The notes beneath the pieces are model-generated. The model saw only the letters and a program-made list of their open reading frames with translations. It did not search any database and was not told the DNA's origin. This document shows, in pieces, positions 12,221 through 33,592 of a stretch of DNA of 33,592 bases; position 1 is the stretch's first letter, and the number at the start of each line of letters is the position of its first letter. The stretch is from Alicyclobacillaceae bacterium I2511 (GTDB taxonomy: Bacteria > Bacillota > Bacilli > Alicyclobacillales > Alicyclobacillaceae). The stretch is taken from positions 1-33,592 of the forward strand of contig QXHL01000028.1 in assembly GCA_003584005.1 (NCBI GenBank). Direction: 5' to 3'. The translations under genes were made by a program, and so were the position numbers.

Positions 12221-12328
12221 CTTGCAAAAAGAGATGGTTACCAATTCCTGTGTTCCGTATTCTGTTTCGTAAGTGATAGACAATGCGGCTACATCGGTTT
12301 GGCCAAGCCGGTGGAAGGAGACGCGGGC

Positions 12329-13273
12329 ATGCAGGTGCAGGCTTTAAATTCTCGAGTTTTTCGCTGTGTTGAAAGGCGGCGGCCCTTCATCTTCAAACGT
12401 CTCCTGAGCCCTTCCTCTGTTGTAAATGAACGCTGGTTACAGGAACAAGTTTTTCCTGCCTTGCAACCAGAAGTCCGCTGTCCCCGACTTCTGGGTCATG
12501 GGGACGGGTGGGCTGTCTATGAAGATTGTGGACCCTTGACAGGGTCTTTTGCAGTATCTACGCGTCAGCAGGTGGCCCGAAACTTGGCGCGGCTGCACAC
12601 CCTCACTACCCATCCGCTGCCGATGGACGGGTTGTCCCATACGCCAGCCATCCAAGAAATTGTTTCTTTTGACCAATCAGAATCGTATTTTTCAGCGGGC
12701 TTTCCCGTCCAGACGTCACAGGTAGATTGGTTGCAGAGGGCTTTTCAAAGCCATCCCCTAGCGCTTGCGTCGCCAGTGTTGTGCCATGGCGATATGCACC
12801 CGGCCAACAGCGGGTACGCTGCCAACCAACTGGTTCTCATCGATTGGGAGTATGTGCATTATGACCTGCTTTATTGGGACTTGTATTGCTTACTAGACAT
12901 GACTTCTCCGGATTTTGCGATGGCGCCAAACACACATATGCGCCGCCAGGTCCTGCAAGCTTACAGGGCGGAACGGACTGCACTGGGATTTCCACTACCC
13001 AATGTTTTTGTGACGGATTACTTTCTGTATGCTGCCCTATACTCAAGGTGGATTCTTGGCTTGATTAAACAGGATTTGACTGTGGGTAGACATGAAGCAA
13101 CAGCATTGCTAAGACAAGAGCAAGAGACGCGGGCGGTTTTGGCGGATTGTCGGCTTTTCTTTTTAAGCCAAGCCTCAATAAATGGGCTCGCCGACAGAAA
13201 GGAGTCTCTCAATAGAAAGGAGTCTCTCAATAGAAAGGAGTCTCTCAATAGGAAGGAGTCCCTCGATGGGTAG
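12329..13273 (+). CDS. Aminoglycoside phosphotransferase-fold kinase
   Basis: A cytosolic small-molecule kinase of the APH/choline-kinase superfamily (314 residues). The catalytic loop VLCHGDMHPANSG and the metal-binding LIDWEYVHYDLLYWDLYCLL are both intact. The N-terminal lobe is short, with FIFKRLL as the probable ATP-lysine strand. The family phosphorylates antibiotics, sugars or choline, or acts in spore-coat assembly (CotS/YsxE-like), and the sequence does not decide which. AAGGAG at 12315-12320 selects ATG 12329. The last 24 residues are RKESLN repeats produced by an 18-bp tandem duplication that also carries the next gene's ribosome binding site. The gene overlaps the MFS gene by 8 bases. 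Confidence 0.8.
   Translation: MQVQALNSRVFRCVERRRPFIFKRLLSPSSVVNERWLQEQVFPALQPEVRCPRLLGHGDGWAVYEDCGPLTGSFAVSTRQQVARNLARLHTLTTHPLPMDGLSHTPAIQEIVSFDQSESYFSAGFPVQTSQVDWLQRAFQSHPLALASPVLCHGDMHPANSGYAANQLVLIDWEYVHYDLLYWDLYCLLDMTSPDFAMAPNTHMRRQVLQAYRAERTALGFPLPNVFVTDYFLYAALYSRWILGLIKQDLTVGRHEATALLRQEQETRAVLADCRLFFLSQASINGLADRKESLNRKESLNRKESLNRKESLDG
13196..13267 (+). repeat. Four tandem 18-bp units, each with an AAGGAG ribosome binding site
   Basis: The unit AGAAAGGAGTCTCTCAAT occurs three times perfectly and a fourth time as AGGAAGGAGTCCCTCGAT. It encodes RKESLN repeats at the end of the kinase. Only the fourth unit is followed by G so that its last two bases form the MFS start codon ATG (13266); in the other units the same place reads ATA. 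The array thus ends exactly at the start of the next gene. Confidence 0.93.
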
Positions 13274-14468
13274 ACTTGCGTTTGGCTGGTCTCTGGGCGT
13301 GATGCTTTTATTTGGCGCCTTGGACATGTTTCGAGGGGTGGCCGCACCTTACCTGCAACAAGATTTTCATCTGTCCTATTGGTTGCTGGGGGTCTTATTC
13401 TCAGCCAGCTCAATGGGGTACCTGGTAGGAACACTGCTCACAGGCTTTATAGTAGAAAAAGTTGGACTCAAATCGGTGAAACTTGCGGGTCTCTTGGTTA
13501 CGGCTGGAGGATTGACCCTGATGACTTTCGGGCGTAGCTTTTCTCTGCTGCTAGTGGGGTTTGCAGTGTCCGGTGTAGGCAGTGGCGGGTTGGAGATTGG
13601 CGTGAATGGCACGGTCCCAGCCATTGTGAGGGGCCAGCGCCTCCAGTCTAAATATTTTAATTGGCTACACGGGGTCTATGGAATTGGAGCTTTTGCCTTT
13701 CCAATTTTGGCTGCCCTGATGATACAAACACTGCACGGCTGGCGACCTGTCTATGGCGAACTGACGGGGGTTGCAGTGGTATTGGCGGTGGGCGTAATGC
13801 TGACTTCTTATGCGGGCTTAACGGTGGTTCACAAAGACTTGCAGATAAACAGCCGGGCTATTCCTCCAGGGTTTTGGTCGCAACCCGTTTTGTACGGGTT
13901 GTTAGCGTCCATCTTAGCCTATGTAGTGGCTGAAATGGGGGTGGGGTCTTGGCTACTCACCTATTTGGTGCATACCCATGGCATGTCCGTGGACCGGGCT
14001 TCCATCTATTTGTCCGGATTTTACCTGTGTTTCACCGTCAGCAGGCTGTTGGCACATTTGTGGGTGGACCGCTTAGGCAACGTACGAGCCATCTTTGTTA
14101 GTTTGCTGGTTGCCATCGTCTGTGTGGTTGTCGGCATGGCGACCGGGGGTGTAGGGACTGTTTTGTTAATGGTCGCCGGATTCGGATTTGGTCCTGTATT
14201 TCCCACGCTTACAGCCACAGCCAGTTTCCGATTTGCACATGTGGCAGGCAAAGTGTTGGGGTTGTTGTTTACGGCGGCTGGGGTGGGCAGTCTATTGTCG
14301 AATGCCCTTATTGGGGCGGTGGCCAATACCTATGGTTTGACGCTTGGGTTCGGGCTGGTGGTGCTATTTTTAGCCCTCGTCGCGGTGGCGATGAGCGTGG
14401 TGGCTGTTGCTTCAAGAACAAGGCCCGTGTTTCCGGACGATGTCGGTGCAGTTTGTTCGCACCGATAG
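13266..14468 (+). CDS. Major facilitator superfamily transporter
   Basis: A 400-residue, 12-helix MFS permease resembling the FucP/YfkF type. After helix 1 come DMFRGVAAPYLQQDF and WLLGVLFSASSMGYLVGTLLTGFIVEKVGLKSVKLAG, the helix 2-3 signature. WLHGVYGIGAFAFPILAALM, AEMGVGSWLLTYLVH and FGPVFPTLTATASFRF follow. The substrate is unknown. ATG 13266 follows GAAGGAG of the last 18-bp repeat unit, and the gene overlaps the kinase stop by 8 bases, so translational coupling is likely. Confidence 0.88.
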   Translation: MGRLAFGWSLGVMLLFGALDMFRGVAAPYLQQDFHLSYWLLGVLFSASSMGYLVGTLLTGFIVEKVGLKSVKLAGLLVTAGGLTLMTFGRSFSLLLVGFAVSGVGSGGLEIGVNGTVPAIVRGQRLQSKYFNWLHGVYGIGAFAFPILAALMIQTLHGWRPVYGELTGVAVVLAVGVMLTSYAGLTVVHKDLQINSRAIPPGFWSQPVLYGLLASILAYVVAEMGVGSWLLTYLVHTHGMSVDRASIYLSGFYLCFTVSRLLAHLWVDRLGNVRAIFVSLLVAIVCVVVGMATGGVGTVLLMVAGFGFGPVFPTLTATASFRFAHVAGKVLGLLFTAAGVGSLLSNALIGAVANTYGLTLGFGLVVLFLALVAVAMSVVAVASRTRPVFPDDVGAVCSHR

Positions 14469-27778: not shown

Positions 27779-28720
27779 GTGACAGAGTTGCAGGTCATTT
27801 TGTCGATTATATCGGGCGGCATTGTTGGCTTTACCTTAGGGCTACTGGGCGGTGGGGGTTCGATTCTTGCGGTTCCGCTGTTGCTGTACGTAGTGGGAAT
27901 TCACGATGCGCACGTTGTTATTGGGAGTACTGCGCTGGCAGTGGCGCTCAATGCCTTTTTCAATCTATTTGCACACTGGCATGCGGGTCACGTCGATTGG
28001 AAAGCGGCGGTGGCGTTCGCCTTTCCTGGAGTAGCGGGGGCATGGGTTGGTGCCGATTTGGGGAAATCGGTGAATGACAAGGAACTGCTGTTTTTATTTG
28101 CGATTGTCATGATGCTGATTGCTGTACGAATGATTCTCCCAGCCAAGGGATTGAGTACACCGCATCAACACAAGCCACATACGGTTACACAGGGTGTCGA
28201 GGAAGGGTGGCTGGAGGCCGCAGCGGTGCAAGAAGTTGCCAATGGCACCACCGGGGTGTCCGTGCAATCTCTGCGGCCTAATTTTGTCCGGGAAATCAAG
28301 AAAAGTGAAATCCCAAAATCCGCAGAGGGTGCAAAGATATCGCTGTGGAGGGTGATTCCCACTGGTTTTGCTGTTGGTGGGCTTTCTGGCTTTTTCGGGA
28401 TTGGTGGCGGATTTTTGATTGTGCCGGGACTGATGTTTGCTGCCCGGATGTCCATGATTATGGCGGTGGGGACCTCCTTATTTTCCGTGGGCATGTTTGG
28501 TTTGACTACGGCGGCCAGCTATGCTCTATCCGGACTTGTGAATTGGTGGATTGTGTTAGAATTCGTGGGGGGTGGGGCCGTGGGTGGATTGTTTGGGACG
28601 TGGGCCGCGACTCGTTTGGCTGGCAAGAAGAGAGCGTTAAACACTATTTTTTCTGTCATGGTAATGGGAGTGTCCCTTTACATGCTGTACATTAATGCCC
28701 AGGCGATGCATTGGTTGTGA
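27779..28720 (+). CDS. TauE/SafE-family sulfite/organosulfur exporter
   Basis: A 313-residue inner-membrane protein of the TauE/SafE (DUF81) family. It has two homologous halves: GGIVGFTLGLLGGGGSILAV and GGLSGFFGIGGGFLIVPGLM are the duplicated signature. The halves are separated by a hydrophilic loop of about 55 residues (KGLSTPHQHKPHTVTQG onward). TauE proteins export sulfite, thiosulfate or sulfoacetate and are regular members of CstR-controlled operons, as in Staphylococcus. GGAGGAG precedes GTG 27779. A bidirectional terminator lies 110 bp after the stop. Confidence 0.9.
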   Translation: MTELQVILSIISGGIVGFTLGLLGGGGSILAVPLLLYVVGIHDAHVVIGSTALAVALNAFFNLFAHWHAGHVDWKAAVAFAFPGVAGAWVGADLGKSVNDKELLFLFAIVMMLIAVRMILPAKGLSTPHQHKPHTVTQGVEEGWLEAAAVQEVANGTTGVSVQSLRPNFVREIKKSEIPKSAEGAKISLWRVIPTGFAVGGLSGFFGIGGGFLIVPGLMFAARMSMIMAVGTSLFSVGMFGLTTAASYALSGLVNWWIVLEFVGGGAVGGLFGTWAATRLAGKKRALNTIFSVMVMGVSLYMLYINAQAMHWL

Positions 28721-28958: not shown

Positions 28959-29222
28959 TTAACGACTACGAATAAGTAGCTGAATCGCTTCTTGAATTGC
29001 AATGTGAGAATGAGAACTTCCGGACTCTACTTCAGCACGAATGCAAGTCTCCAAGTTTTCTGCCACAATGGTAGCAATGGCTTTGTCGACCGCACTTCGA
29101 ACGGCGGTTAACTGTGTAATCACATCTCCGCATTCTTTCGTTTGTTCCATCATAGCGAGAACGCCGCGAACTTGGCCCTCGACGCGACGCAGACGATTTT
29201 TTGCGGCGTCTGAGTAATCCAT
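28959..29222 (-). CDS. cstR: CstR-type persulfide-sensing repressor (CsoR family)
   Basis: An 87-residue all-helical repressor of the CsoR/RcnR/FrmR family: NRLRRVEGQVRGVLAMMEQT is the DNA-contacting N-terminus. It has C31 (TKECGDVITQL) and C60 (ENLETCIRAE), the same numbering as the two reactive Cys of CstR. The Cu(I)-binding His of CsoR, four residues before the second Cys, is replaced by N56. This fits a persulfide sensor rather than a copper sensor. AGGTGAG precedes ATG 29222 on the minus strand. Its own promoter carries the inverted repeat at 29258-29273, implying autoregulation. Neighbouring tauE and rhodanese genes match the known cst gene context. Confidence 0.87.
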   Translation of the reverse strand: MDYSDAAKNRLRRVEGQVRGVLAMMEQTKECGDVITQLTAVRSAVDKAIATIVAENLETCIRAEVESGSSHSHIAIQEAIQLLIRSR

Positions 29223-29685: not shown

Positions 29686-30072
29686 ATGCAGTCGTGGATT
29701 TGGGTTGTGGGTCTGCTGGCAGCCGTGGTGGCGTACTACGTTTGGCAAAAAAGGTCTAATGCGGGAATTCAACACATTGATGCGGCGTCCTTACATGAGA
29801 AGATTAAAAAAACGTCTAACCAAATGGTTATCGTGGACGTCCGTGAACCTGTTGAGTTTGCCGGGGGGCACATTCACAAAGCCAAGAATATTCCCTTGGG
29901 TCAGTTGCCAAAGCACATTCATGAGTTGCCGACTGGCAAAGAACTGGTGTTTGTTTGCCGAAGTGGGAGCCGCAGTTTGCGGGCCTCACGGCTTGCCATG
30001 AAACACGGACACACAGCGGTTTATAACATGGCTGGTGGAATGTCACGTTGGGCTGGCCCAGTGAAACGCTGA
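29686..30072 (+). CDS. Membrane-anchored single-domain rhodanese
   Basis: A 128-residue sulfurtransferase with an N-terminal membrane helix (SWIWVVGLLAAVVAYYVWQK), so the catalytic domain probably faces the cytosol. The rhodanese core shows VDVREPVEFAGGHIHKAKNI and active-site C91 in VFVCRSGSRSLRASRLA, then YNMAGGMSRWAG. It would carry a persulfide on C91, matching control by a persulfide sensor. GGGAAGGTGA precedes ATG 29686. A soluble rhodanese follows 54 bp downstream. Confidence 0.92.
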   Translation: MQSWIWVVGLLAAVVAYYVWQKRSNAGIQHIDAASLHEKIKKTSNQMVIVDVREPVEFAGGHIHKAKNIPLGQLPKHIHELPTGKELVFVCRSGSRSLRASRLAMKHGHTAVYNMAGGMSRWAGPVKR

Positions 30073-30126: not shown

Positions 30127-30435
30127 ATGTCTGTTAAACAGTGGTTGCCTGTAGACTTAAAAGAGCACATTAAATCTGGCAAACCCCTTCAAATTGTGGA
30201 TGTGCGTGAACCCATGGAATTTCGCGGGGGTCATATTCCGGGGGCACAGTTGATTCCCTTGGGACATATTCAGGTGCGCCATCAAGAGATTGATCCAAAC
30301 GTGGATACCGTGGTGGTTTGCCGTAGTGGTGCCCGCAGTTCAATGGCCGCTCGATTTTTGGCTCAGATGGGGCATGGGAAAATTAGAAACCTGATGGGTG
30401 GCATGAATCATTGGGATGGGGAAGTGCATTTTTAA
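30127..30435 (+). CDS. Cytosolic single-domain rhodanese
   Basis: A 102-residue sulfurtransferase: VDVREPMEFRGGHIPGAQLI, active-site C65 in VVCRSGARSSMAARFL and NLMGGMNHWDGE at the end. The active-site Cys is encoded by TGC, so it is not a Sec position. AGGAGGAGG lies in front of ATG 30127. It is about half identical by eye to the membrane-anchored rhodanese upstream, suggesting duplication with one copy soluble. A Sec-containing PDO follows 52 bp downstream, likely on the same transcript. Confidence 0.93.
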   Translation: MSVKQWLPVDLKEHIKSGKPLQIVDVREPMEFRGGHIPGAQLIPLGHIQVRHQEIDPNVDTVVVCRSGARSSMAARFLAQMGHGKIRNLMGGMNHWDGEVHF

Positions 30436-30487: not shown

Positions 30488-31138
30488 TTGTTGATTTCCG
30501 AAAGTAATCAACAGGCTATTCGCAAACGATTTGCTGGATTGGTGAATCCGGTAGTCCTGCAGTATTTTGAATCTTCCTTGAATTGCCCCATGTGTTCTGA
30601 AGTCAAGACATTGCTACAAGAACTCACTGGTTTATCCGACTTACTGACTTTGGAAGTGGTCAATGTCTATGCGGACGAGGCACGGGCAAAGGAAGCACAG
30701 GTGGATAAAGCACCTACAATTATTTTGACCGATGACACTCGCAAAGATTATGGTATTCGCTACCATGGGGCACCTAGTGGTTACGAGTTTGCCGCCTTGT
30801 TGGAGGATATTTTGATGGTATCCAAAGGCGATTCTGGATTGCAAAAGGCGACTCGGGAAATGCTCGCAAGTTTGGTTAATCCCGTACATCTTGAGGTTTT
30901 TGTCACACCCACTTGACCCTATTGTCCGGCCGCGGTGCGGCTCGCGCATCAGTTTGCGTATCAGTCTGAACAGGTGACTGGCTTCATGGTTGAAGCGTCG
31001 GAGTTTCCAGAGTGGTCTGAACAGTTCAGCGTATATGGGGTACCTAAAACTGTAATCAACCGTACAGAGGAGCATTCGCTGGAGGGTGCTGTTCCAGAGC
31101 AGATGTTCTTGGATGCTGTCATGGAAGCGGCAAAGTAA
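30488..31138 (+). CDS. Two-domain protein disulfide oxidoreductase, selenoprotein (in-frame TGA = Sec143)
   Basis: A 216-residue tandem thioredoxin/glutaredoxin-fold protein of the PDO type. Domain 1 has C33-P-M-C36. Domain 2 reads EVFVTPT, then TGA at 30914-30916, then PYCPAAVRLAHQFA, so the usual VTPTCPYCP active site becomes U143-P-Y-C146. After the TGA the frame stays open for 73 codons with full PDO homology (VEASEFPEWSEQFSVYGVPK) to TAA 31138. Sec in the N-terminal position of a CxxC motif would lower the redox potential and raise reactivity. The start is TTG 30488 (or TTG 30491), after GAGGGGGG. A hairpin follows the TGA by 11 bases. It is the last gene of the rhodanese operon, before a strong terminator. 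Confidence 0.9.
30928..30942 (+). promoter_or_regulatory. Candidate bacterial SECIS hairpin of the PDO gene
   Basis: GGCCGC (30928-30933) pairs with GCGGCT (30937-30942), six pairs with one G-U at the base, around a GGT loop. It begins 11 bases after the TGA codon. The GGT loop resembles the G/U-containing apical loop recognised by SelB. Confidence 0.6.
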
Positions 31139-31157
31139 AATAACTGCAACTGTGTGA

Positions 31158-31210
31158 CCCGTGTGTTGAAGTCCAGTCTGTTGCCTGGGTTTCAATGCGC
31201 GGGCTTTTTA
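31158..31210 (+). terminator. Intrinsic terminator after the PDO gene
   Basis: CCCGTGTGTTGAAG (31158-31171) can pair along its full 14 bases with TTTCAATGCGCGGG (31190-31203), with several G-U pairs. The loop has an inner CCAG/CTGG stem, and CTTTTTAT follows directly. It closes the rhodanese-PDO operon. Confidence 0.85.
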
Positions 31211-31434
31211 TAAACGGCTGTCGCGGAAATAAACATTACAATGAGACCGTCGAGACCATCGAGTCCCGTTCTTTGAGGCCAGAGTTTATGGGGCCATACG
31301 ATGTGGCAACTTGGTCCTGGCTACGCGAACGCACGGCACAGTATTATGAGATTGAAGTGGTGGAAAACGTGAAGAACGCAGTGTTCTGGAGGGGTGTTAT
31401 GTCATAGAAGCCTCTACCTGTCATGCAGAGTTGA

Positions 31435-31826
31435 ATCCTAAAGGAGATTTGGGCGCTGCATAAGACCCTGCGGCGGGTAGAGGATTTGTTTAGGGAACTG
31501 AAGACAGACTTGGGGATACGTCCTGTGCAGCCTCAAACCGCCAAAAGAACACAAGCGCACCTATTTATCTCTGTTTTGCGTATCATTTTCTGGCCGTAAC
31601 AGAGCGGCATCTCCGAGAAGTAAGTGACACCAGACGGTGGTTCCCCATTCGGGACGTGCTGAGTACACACCAAAAAATGACCATGGGGTTAGAAGATCAG
31701 GCAGATAACGTGCACTCCGTCCGAGTGTCAGGGAAGCCCGAGGCAAAGCACAGGGATATTTATAAAAAGTGGGGCATTGCAGACCTCCTCAAACCAGAAC
31801 ACAGAATTGTCGCACGAAGGTTGTAG
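31435..31826 (+). pseudogene. Remnant of an IS1634/IS4-type transposase, frameshifted
   Basis: Two adjacent frames give the C-terminal part of a DDE transposase. Frame one reads LKEIWALHKTLRRVEDLFRE, then LKTDLGIRPVQPQTAKRTQA and HLFISVL, and stops at TAA 31597. Shifting by one base near 31578 continues AYHFLAVTERHLREVSDTRR and then WFPIRDVLSTHQKMTMGLED to TAG 31824. The YxxLxRVExxFRxLK and IRDVLSTHQ patterns are typical of IS1634-like elements. The N-terminal two thirds and any terminal inverted repeats are missing, so the copy is dead. It lies between the PDO operon and selD. Confidence 0.8.
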
Positions 31827-31849
31827 TGCCGTAAGAAAAATGACTTTCC

Positions 31850-31948
31850 AAACCTGGCAAACCTGGCAAACCTGGCAAACCTGGCAAACCTGGCAAACCT
31901 GGCAAACCTGGCAAACCTGGCAAACCTGGCAAACCTGGCAAACCTGGC
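31850..31948 (+). repeat. Eleven perfect tandem copies of AAACCTGGC
   Basis: A 9-bp unit repeated eleven times without error, followed by AA and GGCTTCTC. The length is a multiple of three in every frame, so long spurious frames such as repeated Gln-Thr-Trp appear, but there is no ribosome binding site or gene homology. It sits between the transposase remnant and the second structured repeat. Copy number is likely to vary between strains, or it may have been compressed in assembly. Confidence 0.95.
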
Positions 31949-31980
31949 AAGGCTTCTCGGGCATTAAATCGAAAGTTGGG

Positions 31981-32230
31981 CTAGGATCTTCTTAGGAACT
32001 GAATCGACAGTCTCAAATAAGGTACCCCAGGACGCTTATAGGCCTTTTCAAGCCACTTTTCGCATAAATAAGCGTTCGCCAGGCCCTTATTTCAGCAAAA
32101 GCGGTGCAAACATGGTGGGAAAACGTGCAATAGACGACTTTCACACCCTTATTTGCGTTTCATCGCTCGATATTTGATGATTTAGCGACTGGGGGACCCT
32201 TATTTCCAAAATCGGAAATTGGTCCCCCTC
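31981..32230 (+). repeat. Dispersed structured repeat, copy 2 (about 250 bp)
   Basis: Homologous throughout to 5704-5955. The ends fold well here: ACTG-AATCGA-CAGT near the left end, AAATAAG facing CTTATTT in the middle, and a right end with GGGGGACC pairing to GGTCCCCC around an inner ATTTCC/GGAAAT stem. The second hairpin (ATAAG...CTTAT) is partly degraded compared with copy 1. A shorter related head (ACTGATTGAATCGACAGT) recurs at 32328-32345. The gap from here to selD holds only that head and the hairpin before selD. Confidence 0.85.
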
Positions 32231-32498
32231 ACACTAGGGATGTCCATCGCAATCCTTCGGGCAGTGGGGGGCACGCTACTCTAAAAAGCCTTCAAAAACT
32301 CGCAGGGCGTGTCAAGGGTCTAGAGAAACTGATTGAATCGACAGTCTCCTGTTAGTCCCTATCGGAGGTCAAAGGGCCGTTTTTCTCCCATATTTCAACT
32401 AGAATTGGTGAAATAGGGTCTCAAAGTGGACGCTATTGCTGGAATCCAGTGACTGGATATGTCATGATGAAAGTGGCAGCGATGGTGTGTGTGGACTT

Positions 32499-32545
32499 CC
32501 CCCCCGGCTTTTGTCTGCGCTTAGAGAGGGGCTGCCGAAAGGGGG
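32499..32545 (+). promoter_or_regulatory. Possible hairpin hiding the selD ribosome binding site
   Basis: CCCCC (32499-32503) and CGGC (32505-32508) face GCCG (32534-32537) and GGGGG (32541-32545), nine pairs with a small internal loop. GGGGG is the probable selD ribosome binding site, 8 bases before ATG 32554. The fold could limit selD translation. It is only a base-pairing observation. Confidence 0.35.
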
Positions 32546-32553
32546 CGGTGATA

Positions 32554-33592
32554 ATGTACGAAATTCAACGGGATTGGTCCCATTTAACGGCTTTTACTTC
32601 CTGCTCTGGGTGAGCTGCTAAGATGGGTCCGGGGGACCTAGCAAAACTGGTGGAACCTTTAGTAGGAATGCAAACTTTTGATCCCCGCCTATTGGTGGGG
32701 CTGGACCATCCAGATGATGCTGCGGTATACCAAGTCAGTGACGACGTCACCCTGGTGTTTACAATGGATTTCATTACGCCTGTAGTGGATGATGCGTGGA
32801 CATGGGGCGCAATAGCGGCCACCAACGCAATGAGTGACATCTGGGCCATGGGTGGACGTCCGATTTTAGCGTTGAATATGGCGGCCTTTCCGAAGGACAT
32901 GCCTGTCCAGGTGGGTAGTCAAGTCATCGGTGGTGGCGTGGATGCGTCGCGCAGAGCAGGTGCCTTGGTGGTGGGCGGCCATTCTGTGGAAGATGAAGAG
33001 CCTAAATACGGGTTGGCGGTGGTGGGCCTCGTAAATCCGCACCAACTCATTCGTAAAAATGGGGCTAAGGTTGGAGATCGGTTGGTTTTGACCAAACCTG
33101 TGGGCGGTGGGTTGCTAGTTAAACTGGGTAAAAGCGCAACAACAGGTGTGGACGGGATGGCTATGGCCATCGAGAATATGTTGCGGTTAAATCGTGTTGC
33201 ATCAGAATTGGCCATCCAAACGGGAGTTTTTGGGGGGACGGATGTTACGGGGTTCGGAATTCTTGGCCATGGGGTAGAGATGGCTCGGGAAGCGGGTGTA
33301 CAATTCCGCCTTCACTATGGGATGTTACCCGTGTTGGATGGGGCCGTGGAAGAGGCCAAAGCAGGCCGCAATTTTCCAGGAAAAACATGGCAAAATAAAG
33401 AGTACTTTGCCACGAGCGTGGATTTTGACGAAGCATTGCCACAGCATCTGCAAAATCTGCTGTGGTCCCCTGAAACTTCGGGTGGACTGCTGCTGAGCGT
33501 TCCTCCAGAGCGCACAGAAAAATTTGTGCAAGCGCTACGAGTTTTGGGGGAAGAGGCGTGGGTTGTCGGGGAAGTCGAATCTGGGGCGGGCC
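32554..33592 (+). CDS. selD: Selenophosphate synthetase, itself a selenoprotein (Sec20); 3' end outside window
   Basis: SelD makes selenophosphate from selenide and ATP, the selenium donor for Sec-tRNA synthesis. From ATG 32554 the frame reads MYEIQRDWSHLTAFTSCSG, TGA (32611-32613, Sec20), AAKMGPGDLAKLV and onward. The TSCSG-U-AAK-G segment is the glycine-rich active-site loop, where SelD enzymes have Cys or Sec followed by the catalytic Lys (K23). Later motifs are intact: AATNAMSDIWAMGGRPILAL, GGTDVTGFGILGHGVEMA and SPETSGGLLLSVPPE. Starting instead at ATG 32623 would remove the catalytic loop and is wrong. A 7-bp hairpin lies 11 bases past the TGA. The gene runs off the right edge. Confidence 0.95.
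32624..32640 (+). promoter_or_regulatory. Candidate bacterial SECIS hairpin of selD
   Basis: TGGGTCC (32624-32630) pairs with GGACCTA (32634-32640), seven pairs with one G-U, around a GGG loop. It begins 11 bases after the Sec codon, as in the PDO gene. Confidence 0.62.

Follow-up and report, generated by a model that had tools for sequence, protein, structure and literature searches.

The gene at 30488-31138 of the window (the whole analysed stretch of 33,592 nucleotides) most probably codes for a protein disulfide oxidoreductase (PDO) with two thioredoxin folds, in a selenoprotein form; judging from the sequence, we put the probability of this reading at about 0.9. The earlier note on this DNA had placed selenocysteine (Sec) at the attacking position of the second PDO active site. 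That placement was supported by a match to family TIGR02187, by an alignment column holding either TGA or Cys, by a downstream hairpin and by the Sec machinery of the genome. The gene and its putative Sec codon are:

30488-31138, plus strand: Sec-PDO gene, 216 residues, two predicted thioredoxin folds, motifs CPMC (residues 33-36) and UPYC (residues 143-146)
30914-30916, plus strand: in-frame TGA, predicted selenocysteine 143, placed by codon position and homologue alignment

The translated frame contained a single TGA, at codon 143 in the context VFVTPT-U-PYCP, followed by 73 codons. When C was substituted for U, the read-through product scored 268.4 bits against TIGR02187 (cut-off 185) and covered profile positions 2-209 of 209; the family is named protein disulfide oxidoreductase, with the short name PDO_seleno_TRX. 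An AlphaFold2 model built from 28 related sequences had a mean pLDDT of 94.6. The best solved-structure match to the model was Pyrococcus furiosus PDO chain 1a8l (TM 0.94), in which residue 146 paired with codon 143 (phmmer; counted along the alignment row). Two thioredoxin folds were predicted, each with a CxxC-type site (CPMC, UPYC), consistent with membership of TIGR02187. The archaeal and Aquifex PDOs (1a8l, P. horikoshii 1j08, A. aeolicus 2ayt, A. pernix 2hls and the S. solfataricus PDO) share this two-fold layout, and their structures were 32-43% identical to the Sec-PDO over the structural alignment. However, the two archaeal/Aquifex chains shown aligned carried Cys in the second site, where the window protein has Sec. 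The N-terminal domain of AhpF has the same double thioredoxin-fold arrangement (TM 0.75-0.89, normalised by query length; ranks 9-14), but AhpF carries a fused flavin domain that is absent from the Sec-PDO. Classification as AhpF itself was rejected at 62.5 bits against a cut-off of 502.9, the match being confined to the N-terminal region of the AhpF model.

PDO was searched for in 61 genomes, comprising the window's own and 60 relatives. A match of some kind was obtained in 45 of them and a full-length PDO in 36, as 42 copies. Filtering by identity across 270 bases took the PDO rows from 61 down to 41. The Cys copy L034, with 8 differences from L032 in 636 bases, was lost in this thinning as well; it was included in the neighbourhood count (19 Cys loci) and is absent from the tree, folding, pairing and codon counts (18 Cys). 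Alignment A1 comprised 28 of the 41 rows and A2 13 of 23, while A3 and A4 held all 23 Sec and all 18 Cys rows, respectively. An alignment with Cys homologues and a search for Sec/Cys pairs, both proposed in the earlier note, gave a clear outcome: codon 143 was TGA in 23 of the 41 distinct homologues and Cys in 18, and TGA occurred at no other position in any of them.

If the TGA were a true stop, the product would be a truncated protein or the gene a decaying pseudogene. A 142-residue ORF ending at 30916 with domain 1 complete is present, as that reading expects. Against it, the TGA was kept at the same codon in a genome of the same genus (G001), whose PDO was 89% identical to that of the window. 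The dN/dS between the two was 0.039/1.52 (about 0.026) past the TGA and 0.060/1.12 before it, so strong purifying selection acts on the PDO frame beyond the stop-like codon. The confinement of TGA to one catalytic codon across many genera also argued against termination.

The same codon recurred in wider samples. All 12 further TGA copies fetched from Bacillota had TGA at this PDO codon. In a draw of 299 genomes from the phylum (own included), 20 matched the PDO with an E-value no higher than 1e-30. These yielded 25 PDO matches, not all of them full-length, of which 13 contained one TGA. A contig scan with the PDO protein as single query returned no relatives; with the PDO alignment as query, 584 were returned, and the best 80 of these were inspected. 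Nine of the best 80 were Sec loci, including those of Alicyclobacillus tolerans and A. mengziensis, and some of the nine were genomes already among the 61 searched. This fraction probably underrates Sec because one of the two search patterns, TPTCPYCP, is Cys-specific. Two loci came from a viral scan, and one of them encodes a complete Cys form; among the 82 loci inspected (the best 80 of 584 and the two from the viral scan), the PDO motif pattern was unmatched in L134 and L159. A sequencing or assembly error in a Cys codon had in its favour that the genome is a 232-contig draft with adapter-like DNA at the window start. Its probability is negligible, given the same TGA in G001 and 21 more of the 61 genomes, in the 12 further Bacillota copies and in nine of the best 80 relatives. 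An in-frame UGA, conserved coding sequence beyond it and Cys homologues in that column, which mark bacterial selenoproteins, were all found for this gene.

The proposed recoding element lies just after the TGA:

30928-30942, plus strand: predicted SECIS hairpin, six-pair stem of 30928-30933 with 30937-30942, loop GGT at 30934-30936

This hairpin, GCCGC-GGT-GCGGC with a closing G-T pair, begins 11 bases past the TGA; it had been pointed out in the earlier note, and we found that Sec genes keep it whereas Cys genes do not. Across the Sec set (23 genes, 22 distinct rows), 92.4% of cells in the six-pair stem were paired, compared with 22.7-54.5% when the stem was slid by 1-3 columns, and the covariation score exceeded all 500 shuffles. 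By contrast, pairing in the Cys set (18 genes, 17 distinct rows) was 55.9%, and a slid version did better (62.7%). RNAalifold recovered the hairpin from the Sec set at -7.3 kcal/mol, with two pairs changed on both sides, and found nothing comparable in the Cys set (-0.25 kcal/mol). Synonymous codon diversity in the four stem codons (pairs with the same residue) was 0.21 in Sec genes and 0.73 in Cys genes, while the other codons gave 0.50 and 0.55, respectively. Stem codons that are constrained in TGA genes and unconstrained in Cys genes also count against a true stop.

Over the 60 bases beginning with the TGA, folding energy showed no excess over shuffles (mean z -0.40 for Sec, -0.05 for Cys), so the SECIS case rests on the codon-level constraint and the pairing counts. 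The Rfam scan of the window gave no family at gathering score. All double-compensated stem pairs fell within one clade of four sequences and perhaps reflect a single event; their count was not beyond chance, being reached by 181 of 500 shuffles. Just 2 to 5 of the 6 stem pairs formed in the near-group register in the 12 distant Bacillota copies. Predicted folds in 11 of the 12, made with no shuffle control, placed the onset of the apical loop 17-20 bases after the UGA, and the hairpin of these distant genes is predicted to lie in another register than in the near group. By pairing and codon evidence, a SECIS hairpin close downstream of the UGA, a further mark of bacterial selenoproteins, was found in the window gene.

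The genome from which the window comes is 98% complete and holds selA, selB, selD and tRNA-Sec. In profile searches selA scored 549 bits, above cut-off, and selB was also above cut-off, as a 655-residue frame that included the C-terminal part. The tRNA-Sec scored 70.3 bits and was named tRNA-SeC with anticodon TCA by ARAGORN. The earlier note had held that a lack of selA, selB and tRNA-Sec would speak against its proposal; all three were present. Taken with the evidence above, this Sec machinery leaves the pseudogene or true-stop reading largely refuted, and we consider it very improbable. The UGA could also be read as another amino acid (e.g., Trp) through a changed code or near-cognate suppression. 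We found no evidence in support of this, and the Cys at this position in other homologues, the tRNA-Sec with anticodon TCA and the termination of the neighbouring rhodanese 1 gene in TGA make it more improbable still.

Across the 61 genomes, 23 have a TGA copy, and 21 of these showed a clear tRNA-Sec, as did 9 of the 38 that lack a TGA copy (Fisher p 2e-7, kinship uncorrected). "Clear" meant 53 bits or more, a line set after viewing the score gap (30 genomes); at the Rfam cut-off of 47, 35 of the 61 genomes had one. The best tRNA-Sec of G045 (98% complete, TGA copy) scored 49.7 bits, above the Rfam cut-off and below 53. G054 (60% complete, TGA copy) had no clear tRNA-Sec at the 53-bit line.

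The earlier note could not tell whether a Sec-PDO had been described before; it had been predicted (PMC1794560, PMC9312934, PMC13188914). In the available sections of a 2006 survey, a "homolog of AhpF, amino-terminal domain" is given with two Sec genes, from Carboxydothermus hydrogenoformans and Symbiobacterium thermophilum (PMC1794560). In excerpts of reviews from 2022 and 2026, TIGR02187 appears as a predicted selenoprotein with a UxxC motif (PMC9312934, PMC13188914), and an Asgard paper, in the portion available, adds four archaeal sequences (PMC11227280). The proteins listed since 2006 resemble the window protein in belonging to the TIGR02187 profile family with one Sec in UxxC. The likeness is at the level of family and motif; the available text of these sources does not specify whether the Sec lies in the first or second site. 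The window Sec-PDO differs from listed members in its lineage (near Alicyclobacillus by protein similarity), its Cys paralogue and its rhodanese/CstR-like neighbourhood. No characterised Sec-PDO was found in the literature searched, which covers few subscription journals and is weak evidence of absence. What is new here is the Cys paralogue in the same genome, the selD with an in-frame TGA and the recurring rhodanese/CstR-like neighbourhood. The Sec-PDO has thus been predicted since 2006, with no role stated in the available sections of these sources, and its neighbourhood now offers a testable one.

The Cys paralogue lies on another contig of the same genome, has the motif VTPTCPYC and is 62% identical to the Sec-PDO. 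Both Sec and Cys copies were present in 6 of the 61 genomes, and these six form a natural experiment on what selenium gains a thiol reductase. A tree made without the Sec/Cys letter requires four changes between Sec and Cys, two of them forced by starred branches; bootstrap trees gave 3-4. One genome (G055) has two paralogues, L054 and L057, whose second sites carry Cys in one and Sec in the other. Since domain 1 of both lacks CxxC, the second site alone seems catalytic in this pair.

Upstream of the Sec-PDO gene, the window contains:

27779-28720, plus strand: TauE/SafE-family permease (PF01925, 166 bits)
28959-29222, minus strand: CsoR-family repressor (PF02583, 80.9 bits) with Cys31, Cys60 and Asn56, a CstR-like pattern
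29686-30072, plus strand: rhodanese 1, one rhodanese domain preceded by a hydrophobic N-terminal segment, active-site loop CRSGSR
30127-30435, plus strand: rhodanese 2, 102 aa, single domain, CRSGAR

The two rhodaneses that the earlier note had seen beside the PDO are both single-domain and lie upstream on the same strand; the repressor is oriented divergently from the rhodanese-PDO genes. A same-strand rhodanese was present within 1.5 kb at 15 of the 23 Sec loci and 4 of the 19 Cys loci. The repressor combines a CsoR-family fold with two Cys residues, Cys31 and Cys60, which by their numbering we take to be the sensing Cys of S. aureus CstR; it lacks a His between them, presumably the feature of copper CsoR. 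A CsoR-family repressor with Cys31/Cys60 was also sought in the fetched 5 kb around other PDO genes: 10 of 22 Sec loci had one, as did 1 of 8 Cys loci, several contigs ending sooner than 5 kb. Matches of the repressors in NCBIfam were to copper, formaldehyde and nickel/cobalt families only, all under cut-off. Two relatives had CoA-disulfide reductase-like genes with a rhodanese tail near PDO, under the family cut-off. Beside the Cys PDO of one relative was a rhodanese/metallo-beta-lactamase protein with a weak match to the sulfurtransferase/dioxygenase Blh. The S. aureus cst operon is, we assume, a sulfane-sulfur operon of the CstR/YrkD type that the window locus resembles. In comparison with CstR/YrkD-controlled operons, the window locus has a Sec-PDO in place of a plain thioredoxin, and no sqr or persulfide dioxygenase was noticed among the window ORFs annotated. 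A described parallel in the excerpted literature is the B. licheniformis yrk cluster, which handles sulfane sulfur and, like the window, has a CsoR-family two-Cys, CstR-like repressor, a rhodanese, TauE and a thioredoxin-fold protein; the two-Cys mechanism of CstR-like persulfide sensing is described in the same source (PMC9918477).

The role of the Sec-PDO may be the reduction of persulfides and related disulfides, a proposal to which we give about even odds. It derives from the rhodanese/CstR-like neighbourhood together with the activity of the S. solfataricus PDO, for which thiol-transferase activity at the C-terminal site is reported in the available part of PMC7465337; the C-terminal site is the Sec-bearing one in the window protein. 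In the proposed mechanism, SelB would deliver Sec-tRNA to the UGA, guided by the downstream hairpin, and the ribosome would read past it, yielding a product of about 24 kDa. Domain 1 would act through an ordinary CxxC, and in domain 2 Sec would attack and Cys146 resolve, with a selenenyl-sulfide presumably forming between Sec143 and Cys146 during the cycle, by analogy with the thioredoxin mechanism. Going by the neighbourhood, electrons would most likely come from a thioredoxin-reductase-like flavoprotein, and the substrates would be persulfides and disulfides, on proteins or small molecules, that the neighbouring rhodaneses produce. The Sec-PDO would then supply the reductase function in a CstR-type locus that responds to sulfane sulfur. 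Near Sec-PDO genes (L066:5669-6259 and L064:7621-8184) we observed short (188-197 aa) thioredoxin-reductase-like FAD proteins that match the first third of the thioredoxin-reductase family only; these are possible partner flavoproteins.

The same selenoprotein could instead serve mainly in general thiol redox balance or peroxide defence, acting as electron donor to peroxiredoxins as archaeal PDO does for Bcp, with the rhodanese linkage incidental. The Sulfolobus PDO passes electrons from thioredoxin reductase on to Bcp peroxiredoxins, according to the available part of PMC7465337, and the N-terminal domain of AhpF is structurally related. A same-strand rhodanese within 1.5 kb is also lacking at 8 of 23 Sec loci and at 15 of 19 Cys loci. 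However, no peroxiredoxin was noticed beside the PDO among the part of the window ORFs that was annotated, and rhodaneses and CstR-like repressors recur beside PDO genes. We regard this alternative as plausible yet somewhat doubtful. The earlier note had suggested a persulfide or peroxide reductase. The persulfide half is indirectly supported by the neighbourhood (CstR-like repressor, rhodaneses and TauE, and in relatives the CoA-disulfide reductase/rhodanese fusions and the rhodanese/metallo-beta-lactamase protein), while nothing specific was found for peroxide, which is the less supported of the two. Extending the persulfide proposal, the Sec-PDO might be a dedicated Se-dependent persulfide reductase, with the Cys paralogue as a selenium-poor stand-in and the selenoprotein SelD tying the supply of selenophosphate to the locus. 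We consider this rather unlikely; if true, the cell would switch between its two PDOs, Sec and Cys, as the availability of selenium and sulfur changes.

Downstream of the Sec-PDO gene are:

31849-31950, plus strand: perfect 9-bp tandem array (CAAACCTGG x 11.3), lying in the additional PDO-selD spacer DNA
32554-33592, plus strand, cut by the window end: selD (selenide, water dikinase; TIGR00476, 299 bits for the part from 32623)
32611-32613, plus strand: in-frame TGA of selD, SCSGUAAK, then hairpin GGTCC-GGG-GGACC

The selD frame extends upstream of the ATG at 32623 to an ATG at 32554 through the TGA (LTAFTSCSG-U-AAKMGPGD), and the same in-frame selD TGA was present in G001. Like known Sec-containing SelD proteins, the window SelD is predicted to carry Sec, here in the motif SCSGUAAK; SelD already appears in the selenoprotein list of the 2006 survey, as excerpted (PMC1794560). 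The earlier note had called selD a near neighbour of the PDO gene. It does lie downstream on the same strand, but it starts 1.4 kb away, past DNA that is absent from G001. The gap was about 0.2 kb in G001 and 1.4 kb in the window (compared stretch 229 and 1422 bases). The window spacer, 31139-32560, is about 1.2 kb longer than that of G001, and our impression is that the spacer may include mobile-element remnants. An ATG-to-stop ORF call placed the start of selD downstream of its TGA, and gene prediction that ignores Sec would truncate or shorten both PDO and selD in the window. Elsewhere in the genome, a formate dehydrogenase alpha-like gene (L160, G000:C207:5348-7213), just under cut-off, has an in-frame TGA in NRTUHAPSVVGL, which we take to be the usual Sec place of formate dehydrogenase. 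With the in-frame TGA codons of PDO, selD and this gene, the predicted selenoprotein genes of the genome number at least three.

Two minor features were seen elsewhere in the window. At the contig start (27-59), a near-match to an adapter sequence, presumably the Nextera transposon adapter, reads SSAASDVYKGQ in an ORF and is a probable adapter remnant in the assembly. At 13196-13264, an 18-bp tandem array of 3.8 copies lies in the overlap between the end of ORF 12299-13273 and the start of ORF 13182-14468, adding repeats to both.
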